Of a stretch of DNA of 39,438 nucleotides, positions 1 to 23,619 are shown piece by piece (the first letter of the stretch is position 1; every line of letters starts with the position of its first letter). This stretch comes from Gammaproteobacteria bacterium (lineage in GTDB: Bacteria > Pseudomonadota > Gammaproteobacteria > S144-34): positions 1 to 39,438 of the forward strand of contig JALSJE010000134.1 of NCBI GenBank assembly GCA_026989495.1. The letters are read 5' to 3'. A model generated the notes under the pieces. The model had not been told where the DNA came from and did not search any database. It saw nothing but the letters and a program-made list of their open reading frames with translations. The translations under genes were made by a program, and so were the position numbers.

Positions 1-129
1 CGCGGCCAGGGACGGCCGCGGAACGGCTCATGCACATGGAAGTGCATGACGATACGAAAAAATCGAAAATGGGTCGCGAAGCACCATAGCGCTGATCAAT
101 CCGCGCAGCGGATTGATCAGAGTTTCCGG
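1..129 (+). repeat. Four-hairpin intergenic repeat, copy A (cut by window edge)
   Basis: This is the right-hand part of a roughly 168-bp element found four times in the window. The first hairpin of the full element lies left of base 1. Visible here are the GC hairpin (arms CGCGGCC and GGCCGCG, bases 1-21), the CATGCAC/GTGCATG hairpin with loop ATGGAA (about 30-49), and the terminal 13-bp perfect stem (CTGATCAATCCGC at 92-104, GCGGATTGATCAG at 108-120, loop GCA). The copy ends with GTTTCCGG. It has the same orientation as the copy at 3726 and the opposite orientation to those at 18816 and 23455. No convincing protein is encoded. Confidence 0.9.
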
Positions 130-3725: not shown

Positions 3726-3893
3726 ATGGAAGGTCTGAAAAATCTTGATTTTTCAGGGCTTCCCCGCGGCCAGGGACGGGCGCGGGACGGTCCATGCACA
3801 GGGAAGTGCATGACGACTCAAGGAAAATCAGAATGGACCGCGAAGCACTATCGCGCTGATCAATCCGCGCAGCGGATTGATCAGCGTTTCCGG
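3726..3893 (+). repeat. Four-hairpin intergenic repeat, copy B (complete)
   Basis: This is a complete 168-bp copy in the same orientation as copy A. The hairpins in order are: a 17-position stem at 3728-3744/3747-3763 (arm ends GGAAG and CTTCC, one G-G mismatch and one T-G wobble); a GC stem at 3764-3771/3778-3785 with loop AGGGAC; a 7-bp stem CATGCAC/GTGCATG at 3793-3799/3806-3812; and a perfect 13-bp stem at 3856-3868/3872-3884 with loop GCA. A spacer of about 40 bp between the last two contains GGACCGCGAAGC, shared by the other copies. It sits between the HDOD-GAF gene and pncA, which point the same way. No transposase is encoded. Confidence 0.93.
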
Positions 3894-18187: not shown

Positions 18188-18448
18188 GCGACCCTGACCA
18201 TCCGCAACGTGCCGGAGGAGGTGCGCGAGCGCCTGCGCCTGCGTGCCGCGCGGGCGGGCCGCAGCATGGAGGCCGAGGTGCGCGCCATCCTCGAGGCCGC
18301 CACCCTGGAGGAGGAGGCCCGTCTCGCTGCCGGCGCCCTCCAGGATTGGGTGGCGGGGCTTTACGGTGGCCGGCCGCCGCAGGGCGCCGCCGACGAGCTC
18401 ATCGCCGAGCGCCGGCGCGCAGCCCGGGAGGAGGCCGGAGGCGCTTGA
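18185..18448 (+). CDS. FitA/VapB-type ribbon-helix-helix antitoxin
   Basis: The 87-residue protein begins MATLTIRNVPEEVRERLRL, a ribbon-helix-helix DNA-binding start close to FitA-like antitoxins, with RAARAGRSMEAEVRAILEAA as the following helices. The C-terminal half (AAGALQDWVAGLYGG to AAREEAGGA) would wrap the toxin. It would neutralise the PIN toxin encoded next and repress the operon. The start ATG 18185 lies in a palindrome. The stop overlaps the toxin start as TTGA. The pair interrupts the ssb-MFS-uvrA neighbourhood known in other gammaproteobacteria, which suggests later acquisition. Confidence 0.88.
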   Translation: MATLTIRNVPEEVRERLRLRAARAGRSMEAEVRAILEAATLEEEARLAAGALQDWVAGLYGGRPPQGAADELIAERRRAAREEAGGA

Positions 18449-18828
18449 TCGCGCTCGACGCCTCGGCGCTGCTCGCCTTCCTTTTCCGGGAGCCGGGCCA
18501 CGAGGCCGTGGCCGACGTGCTCGAGCGGGCCTGCATCAGCACCGTCAACCTGGGCGAGGTGCTCGGCCGCTTCGCCCGCGACGGTCACGACCCTGTGCAG
18601 GTGCTGTCGCGCCTGCGCGCCAGCCCCCTGGAGATCGTGCCCTTCCTCGCCGAGCACGCGGCATTCTCTGCCGCGATCCTGCCCCGCACCCGGCACCTGG
18701 GTCTCGCCCTGGGCGATCGCGCCTGCCTCGCCCTGGCGCTGGCGCGCGGGATCCCGGCCTGGACCGCCGACCGCGCCTGGACGGCGCTCGACCTCGGCAT
18801 CTCCGTCCATTGCATCCGGAAACTCTGA
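18445..18828 (+). CDS. VapC/FitB-type PIN-domain toxin ribonuclease
   Basis: The 127-residue PIN protein has the four acidic active-site residues: Asp5 (IALDASALLAFL), Glu38 (STVNLGEVLGRF), Asp91 (LALGDRACLALA) and Asp109 (WTADRAW). Such toxins cut specific RNAs, often tRNA or rRNA, with Mg2+. The start is TTG at 18445, with GGAGG upstream and a four-base overlap with the antitoxin stop. The family begins at this point with (M/L)IALD. The last three residues and the stop codon are encoded by the edge of repeat copy C, so the repeat abuts or has replaced the original gene end. The active site is intact, so the toxin is probably functional. Confidence 0.9.
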   Translation: MIALDASALLAFLFREPGHEAVADVLERACISTVNLGEVLGRFARDGHDPVQVLSRLRASPLEIVPFLAEHAAFSAAILPRTRHLGLALGDRACLALALARGIPAWTADRAWTALDLGISVHCIRKL

Positions 18829-18984
18829 TCAATCCGCTGCGCGGATTGATCAGCGCGATGGCGCTTCGCGGTCCATTTCGATTTTTCGTCCCATTGTCAT
18901 GCACTTCCCTGTGCATGGGCCCTCCCGCGGCCGTCCCTGGCCGCGGGGAAGCCCTGAAAAATCAAGATCTTTCAGGGCTTCCAT
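18816..18984 (-). repeat. Four-hairpin intergenic repeat, copy C (complete)
   Basis: This is a complete 169-bp copy, inverted relative to copies A and B. Top-strand coordinates are: 13-bp perfect stem at 18825-18837/18841-18853 (loop TGC); CATGCAC/GTGCATG stem at 18898-18904/18911-18917; perfect GC stem CCGCGGCC/GGCCGCGG at 18925-18932/18939-18946; and a 17-position stem at 18947-18963/18966-18982 with a single non-Watson-Crick pair. It fills the gap between the convergent vapC-type and MFS genes, and the toxin stop codon lies inside it. CATCCG is found at both edges (18813-18818 and 18982-18987), which could be a target duplication or chance. Confidence 0.93.
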
Positions 18985-19007
18985 CCGCTGAGGAGATGCG
19001 CCGGGCC

Positions 19008-23315: not shown

Positions 23316-23454
23316 CCGCGGCCGGCCAGCCCGGGAAAGGGCGCCGCATCCTTGCCGCAACGTCAGGCCGGCAGGGCCCCTGAGTCGAACGCCACGAGGA
23401 GGTGGACTCCCACGAAAACGAGAGAAAAGCCTGAAAATGGCTCGGAACTCTGAT
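23316..23454. other. Spacer between uvrA and repeat copy D
   Basis: No gene is seen. The uvrA end carries GCCGCGGCCGGC twice in tandem around the stop codon (about 23301-23326). Just before repeat D the sequence GGAACTCTGAT is followed by GGAAACTCTGAT, a near-perfect tandem copy of the repeat's own end. Confidence 0.5.
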
Positions 23455-23619
23455 GGAAACTCTGATCAATCCGCCGCGCGGATTGATCAGCGCGAGGCGC
23501 TTCGCGGTCTATTCGATTTTTCTCCAAGTTGTCATGCACTTCCATGTGCATGAACCGACCCGCAGCCGTCCCTGGCCGCGGGGAAGGGCTGAAAAATCGC
23601 GATTCTTCAGCTCTTCCAC
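23455..23619 (-). repeat. Four-hairpin intergenic repeat, copy D (complete, most diverged)
   Basis: This copy of about 165 bp has the same orientation as copy C. The 13-bp stem is perfect (23462-23474/23478-23490, loop CGC). The 17-position outer stem (23582-23598/23601-23617) differs from copy C at two adjacent pairs, where C-G, C-G has become G-T, G-C on the top strand, so pairing is kept despite sequence change. The GC stem has one G-T or A-C pair and the CATGCAC stem is intact with loop ATGGAA on the minus strand, as in copy A. It fills the gap between convergent uvrA and the first PEP-CTERM gene. Confidence 0.92.

Follow-up and report, generated by a model that had tools for sequence, protein, structure and literature searches.

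A chain-of-hairpins intergenic element in a gammaproteobacterial genome, very probably a non-autonomous transposable element with IS5-type ends

Introduction

The stretch of gammaproteobacterial DNA analysed here (the window, 39,438 nucleotides) is an entire contig (C134) of a source genome of 2.54 Mb in 143 contigs, that of an uncultured bacterium, and several of its intergenic regions are occupied by copies of one palindromic repeat. What kind of element is this, and how did it reach its present positions? The initial annotation of the window, made from the sequence alone, reported four copies and considered, among other readings, a non-autonomous mobile element and a structured transcript end. 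Here we describe the architecture, copy number, insertion sites and relatives of the element, and weigh the explanations for its spread.

Results

Architecture of the element

All four copies in the window were confirmed and aligned (Table 1), with limits, set by target duplications and a profile search, that lie within 2 bases of those first given. The palindromes follow the same order in each, as described before: four are strong (consensus columns 1-36, 37-58, 66-85 and 129-157) and a weak fifth lies at columns 112-128. The 164-bp consensus accordingly comprises a 36-base terminal hairpin (H1), H2, H3, the weak H4 and a second terminal hairpin (H5). It has no coding sequence of its own, and the earlier statement that there is no transposase is correct for the element itself.

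Table 1. Element copies in the window, parts of copy 2 and adjoining features (bits are profile scores).
Feature	Position	Strand	Remarks
Element copy 1	1..127	+	Partial, consensus 38-164, truncated by the contig start; 127.8 bits
Element copy 2	3728..3891	+	Complete, 164 bp; 183.9 bits across the full profile; no target duplication remaining
H1, 5' terminal hairpin of copy 2	3728..3763	+	Contains the GGAAG..CTGAAAAATC end; compensatory changes among copies
H2, internal hairpin of copy 2	3764..3785	+	CCGCGGCC-GGCCGCGG type
H3, internal hairpin of copy 2	3793..3812	+	CATGCAC..GTGCATG
H4, weak internal hairpin of copy 2	3839..3855	+	CGCG-CGCG; 254/296 cells Watson-Crick across copies
H5, 3' terminal hairpin of copy 2	3856..3884	+	CTGATCAATCCGC-GCA-GCGGATTGATCAG
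3' end of copy 2	3872..3891	-	Minus-strand reading GGAAACGCTGATCAATCCGC
Target-site duplication ATCC, left of copy 3	18814..18817	.	GGAT on the element strand
Element copy 3	18818..18982	-	Complete; 174.4 bits
Target-site duplication ATCC, right of copy 3	18983..18986	.	
Partial tandem duplication of terminal repeat	23444..23454	-	GGAACTCTGAT on the + strand; immediately outside copy 4
Element copy 4	23455..23617	-	Complete; 159.6 bits; no target duplication recognised

Folded as single-stranded DNA, copy 2 reaches -50.7 kcal/mol, compared with -25.1 +/- 2.9 for shuffled sequences (z -8.7); H4 is absent from this fold. In the minimum-energy folds of 75 copies, the 5' and 3' ends are paired with each other in only 15, and not in the other 60. 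Each terminal repeat sits in its own palindrome, which makes the element a row of hairpins.

The pairing in H1 is maintained while its sequence varies. At columns 6-8, 193 of 225 cells are Watson-Crick; shuffles yield 139 and never more than 155. The test is inflated, because shuffling ignores the relatedness of the copies. The variable triplet occurs in five distinct Watson-Crick types (GTC/GAC, CTC/GAG, GGC/GCC, CCC/GGG and GCC/GGC), which requires several compensatory steps. RNAalifold, applied to a MAFFT alignment of the 75 copies, gave a result from which H1 was missing, probably through local misalignment, and the H1 pairs were therefore counted directly. G-T pairs (85) exceed A-C pairs (48), and 21 of the former come from one column, so that these counts do not separate a constraint on RNA from one on DNA.

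Two features of the window lie at or near copies. A PIN-domain (VapC-like) ORF at 18346-18828 (Pfam PIN) takes its TGA stop from the end of copy 3, and about 850 bp around this ORF are missing from the sister genome G001 (L163). Close to copy 1, at 330-370, lies a short hairpin (CCGTAGGGCCGGC-CGGTA-GCCGGCCCTACGG) that somewhat resembles the repeat around the RAYT (Y1_Tnp) gene of the source genome. This gene, a single one (contig C114, L046, 1-1020), stands amid many palindromic repeats of the forms GGGGCCGGCAGGATGCCGGCCCC and CGCGGCTTCCAGCCGCG, with which it evidently makes up the REP/RAYT pair of the genome.

Copy number and occurrence

The profile search recovered 98 copies, 76 of them near full length, in 1.238 Mb of the source genome, a sample partly selected for contigs already known to carry copies. 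Since a less biased sample of 406 kb gave 23 matches, we estimate some 140-200 copies (roughly 150) genome-wide, at a density of about 60-80 per Mb. The abundance that the initial annotation had predicted beyond the window is thereby borne out, and the possibility that no further copies exist is rejected. The annotation had also drawn on the absence of copies from the ribosomal half of the window; this is uninformative, as zero copies in 15.8 kb has a probability of 0.29-0.38 at 62-79 copies per Mb. BLAST returned about 40 near-complete copies, with 40 of 163 candidates scored, and a pattern search counted 46 perfect H5 palindromes genome-wide (reversed control, 0). Identity between nearest neighbours among the copies has a median of 94%. 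Contigs C74, C90 and C30 likewise have their start within a copy or close to one, and the repeat thus apparently interrupts the assembly.

Searching relatives as well as the genome, as had been proposed, revealed the same family in two sister species, G001 (MAG S144_34) and G002 (MAG S012_21), at 84-92% identity; none of the other genomes of the class in this search had more than one match of 38 bases. Plasmids and viral contigs held nothing similar, and a literature search on the terminal sequence led to unrelated papers only. Exact matches to the H5 core were seen three times in unrelated phyla (L084, L098 and L102); they are without the GGAA ends and are probably due to chance.

Evidence for transposition

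Flanks could be read for 75 near-full copies. In 35 of these, the GGAA...TTCC ends are directly abutted by an exact 4-bp target-site duplication, where 0.49 would be expected from flanks exchanged among copies. Duplications of 2, 3 and 5-7 bp are not enriched, one 8-bp match was seen, and the table of end matches peaks at offset (0,0). In some copies the last 12 bases (ATCAGAGTTTCC) are tandemly duplicated and the target duplication then lies outside the second unit; a few further duplications were recovered outside this 12-bp terminal duplication. Examples of such a tandem at one end are found in the source genome (G000) at C21:63022, C74:3221, C93:11282 and C19:23802, among others. Three copies in the same genome (C53, C60 and C69) have a common outer flank, CCGCCCGGAAGGAAnGGGAGGGCGGCGTCC, which suggests that they were inserted into a different dispersed repeat or became fused with one.

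When orthologous places were compared with those of the sister species, most of the compared sites proved to be filled in one species only. This comparison, which the initial annotation had suggested for sister strains, provided two clean empty sites. In the pair L080 and C25, CTAA is present twice when the site is filled and once when it is empty; in the pair L093 and C74, ACCA is single in the empty site. The sites C19/L138 and C38/L149 may be shared between species. The element has transposed with a 4-bp duplication and has IS5-like ends. Taken together, the duplications, the empty sites in sister species and the IS5-type terminal repeats described below uphold the earlier proposal of a non-autonomous mobile element.

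Insertion sites

Genes were called with a simple finder based on codon composition. Of 80 insertion points, 71 fall between genes, 5 at the edge of a gene and 4 within predicted ORFs, whereas 78% of random points fall inside genes (p about 1e-40). The observation that copies lie only between genes thus holds for the large majority but not for those four. Divergent, convergent and tandem gaps are occupied roughly in proportion to the intergenic DNA available, and where the flanking genes are in tandem, copies are slightly more often oriented in the same sense as these genes (24 vs 12, p = 0.065).

A+T makes up 62% of the target duplications, in a genome of 73% G+C, and the positions 6-9 bases out are AT-rich on both sides of the insertions. 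The sequence YTAR was found in 0 of 37 target duplications in the source genome and in 1 of 13 in the sister species. Targeting of -10 promoter boxes was considered and rejected: the flanks are TANAAT-like, but the enrichment is modest and indistinct from general AT-richness. In the position test the mean score was 2.08 at the predicted offset vs 1.76 at offset 1, and a match at five of six bases was present in 3 of 75 sites.

Terminal repeats and IS5 relatives

The two consensus ends agree at 15 of their first 19 bases (GGAAnnTCTGAnnAATCCG). Compared with the inverted repeat of an IS5-family IS in another gammaproteobacterium (G262), the consensus of the H5 end (GGAAACTCTGATCAATCC) matches at 17 of 18 positions and the H1 end more weakly, at 13 of 18; the first 18 bases of the 3' end of copy 2 are identical to the G262 repeat. 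The IS in question is intact, 1220 bp long, with IRL GGAAACGCTGATCAATCC and duplications CTAG, CTAA and TTAG (YTAR), and encodes an IS5-family DDE transposase (NF033581, 325.7 bits; PF01609, 112.8 bits). At two places in that genome (L154 and L156), two 1220-bp copies stand in direct tandem with one common 4-bp target sequence.

The pattern GGAARCTCTGATCAATCC, with at most 1 mismatch, occurs in 19 of 274 genomes of the class, sometimes in dozens of copies, and its reversed control in none. In G149 a decayed IS5 relative adjoins the same terminal repeat, MITEs with these ends are present in G164, G205, G160 and G017, and the repeat bounds YTAR MITEs in several other families. G164 has 116 terminal-repeat matches and a 160-bp MITE with TTAA duplications; judged by the pattern, this family is larger than that in the genome of the window. 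Two elements, L133 (G260) 1409-1518 and L128 (G082) 1501-1648, combine the same terminal repeat with one long hairpin, the classical plan. The elements of G160 (151 and 186 bp) and G017 (81 bp) are chains of hairpins with TTAA, TTAG or CTAG duplications, and since a similar plan is found there, in two other families, with different internal sequences, the hairpin-chain plan recurs.

No IS5-type transposase bearing these ends was found in the three draft genomes of the genus (G000, G001 and G002); as these are drafts, this is no proof of absence. The mover of the element, which we infer, may be extinct. Two insertion sequences were discarded as helpers, an IS1182 on C47 and an IS5_3-type IS of G001, both of which are without the terminal repeat. 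Fragments with H1 only or H5 only (C25, C140, C38 and C77) were read as candidate ends of a longer IS and turned out to be solitary hairpins with no transposase beside them in the stretches read.

Discussion

Our data indicate that the element is very probably a MITE, a non-autonomous transposon derivative, whose ends are of the IS5 type. It is shorter than about 500 bp and has no transposase gene, it has terminal inverted repeats and a duplication of fixed length, and it is dispersed in many copies with empty sites in relatives; the end-to-end pairing that is typical of MITEs, if not strictly defining, is seen in 15 of 75 copies only. If the element is a MITE, its enzyme most likely belonged to the IS5 family, since the ends are IS5-like and the duplication has the right length, although not the YTAR sequence, and no autonomous copy with the same ends was found. 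The lack of a matching transposase in the genus, the duplications other than YTAR and the 13/18 agreement of the 5' end count against this explanation. We regard it as a new family of MITEs, in which both the architecture and the target preference are variant.

In the mechanism that we propose, an IS5-family DDE transposase encoded elsewhere would bind the GGAARCTCTGAnnAATC repeat at both ends and join them, at a 4-bp stagger, to a site rich in A+T, after which host repair would duplicate the 4 bases. The palindrome around each terminal repeat could place two opposed transposase-binding sites at each end, and palindromic ends would allow either end to form a hairpin by itself. From the compensatory changes in H1 it would seem that folding has been kept since copies that fold are better at transposing or do less harm to neighbouring genes. 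That copies survive mainly between genes would be explained by selection removing genic insertions.

Other explanations account for parts of the data. A transposase outside the IS5 family that also makes 4-bp duplications might have moved the MITE, the likeness of the 3' end to IS5 then being old ancestry or convergence. Target sites that are AT-rich and not YTAR would fit such a mover, as would the three drafts in which no IS5 transposase was found to bear these ends; we nevertheless regard it as unlikely, given that the H5 end agrees at 17 of 18 bases with the inverted repeat of a real IS5, the stagger is the same 4 bp, and YTAR MITEs of several other families end in the same repeat. The initial annotation had raised the possibility that the copies are parts of a decayed coding insertion sequence. 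Such remnants would have IS5-type ends too, but we reject this origin as extremely improbable: the 75 copies have one uniform 164-bp form with a palindromic interior, no version extended by coding DNA occurs in the 1.24 Mb read, and no matching transposase was found in the genome.

It is also very unlikely that the element is a REP/REPIN-type repeat, mobilised as structured single-stranded DNA by a RAYT (Y1 tyrosine transposase), even though it is palindromic, intergenic and high-copy, and its stems show compensatory changes of the kind that has been reported for REPINs (PMC3116915). One Y1_Tnp gene is indeed present in the genome, but it sits among a different repeat (GGGGCCGGCAGGATGCCGGCCCC), and no element copy lies beside it in the stretch read. 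Moreover, exact 4-bp target duplications, such as those of the element, are made by DDE enzymes and not by Y1 HUH transposases. A structured RNA or a regulatory element that the host has domesticated and kept (an mRNA end, an RNA stabiliser or an attenuator) could account for the strong fold, the conserved hairpins with compensatory changes, the surplus of G-T over A-C pairs and the excess in the sense of tandem genes. It is very improbable in view of a placement that roughly tracks intergenic DNA in all gene arrangements and of sites mostly unconserved between sister species; in addition, the window has 0 Rfam matches above the gathering score. At the two copies scanned (copies 2 and 3) no T-tract terminator, with a T run behind a GC-rich stem, was found, and given this result and the placement, the structured transcript end of the initial annotation is unsupported.

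As a MITE with IS5-type ends, the element is a very successful parasite, which makes up about 1% of a small genome without a detectable helper. It is conceivable, though doubtful, that palindromic terminal repeats represent a recurring adaptation in a class of IS5-type MITEs of Gammaproteobacteria, in which terminal hairpins, maintained through compensatory changes, are active in transposition and the YTAR rule has been shed in this genus. An active role of the hairpins could consist in two opposed transposase sites per end, or in recognition as extruded or single-stranded hairpins. With the plan present in different gammaproteobacterial families, it becomes testable whether hairpin ends are an aid to DDE transposition or a protection for host genes, and roughly 150 natural insertions with empty sites in sister species form a ready data set for the question of hairpin ends.

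MITEs are typically AT-rich, and the element differs from them in that it is not. It has the same features as bacterial MITEs, especially those derived from IS5, which are described as short, geneless and structured, with terminal inverted repeats, target duplications, an intergenic position and a high copy number (PMC10969869, PMC2229807). In classical bacterial MITEs a stem results from pairing of the 5' end with the 3' end (PMC2229807), whereas in 60 of 75 copies of the element each end forms its own hairpin. In E. coli, IS5 carries repeats of 16 bp, duplicates 4 bp of its target and favours intergenic AT-rich places (PMC11677980). The element is similar to the IS5 family in its G262-like inverted repeats (GGAAACGCTGATCAATCC) and 4-bp duplication, and differs in being without a transposase gene and in having AT-rich duplications that lack the YTAR consensus.

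Several palindromic repeats of other bacteria resemble the element in part. REPINs share palindromes, dispersal and compensatory stem changes with it (PMC3116915); they are however REP doublets associated with RAYTs, whereas the element has duplications of the DDE type and is not near the RAYT of its genome. YPAL/RU-2 of Yersinia, which is about 168 bp long, intergenic, palindromic and not AT-rich, and has target duplications (PMC2229807), is alike in all these respects, including base composition, but the duplications of YPAL are 3 to 26 bp long and its inverted repeats internal, in contrast to the fixed 4 bp and the terminal repeats of the element. CIR of Caulobacter likewise consists of separate stem-loop arms (two in CIR) and a linker without a 5'-3' stem; unlike the element, it has a GANTC methylation motif, and no terminal inverted repeat is listed for it (PMC2229807). 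The hairpin-chain MITEs of G160 and G017 have internal sequences that look unrelated and duplications that follow YTAR (TTAA, TTAG, CTAG), but they are built on the same plan: both ends hold the terminal repeat within a hairpin, short hairpins occupy the interior, and the duplication is of 4 bp.
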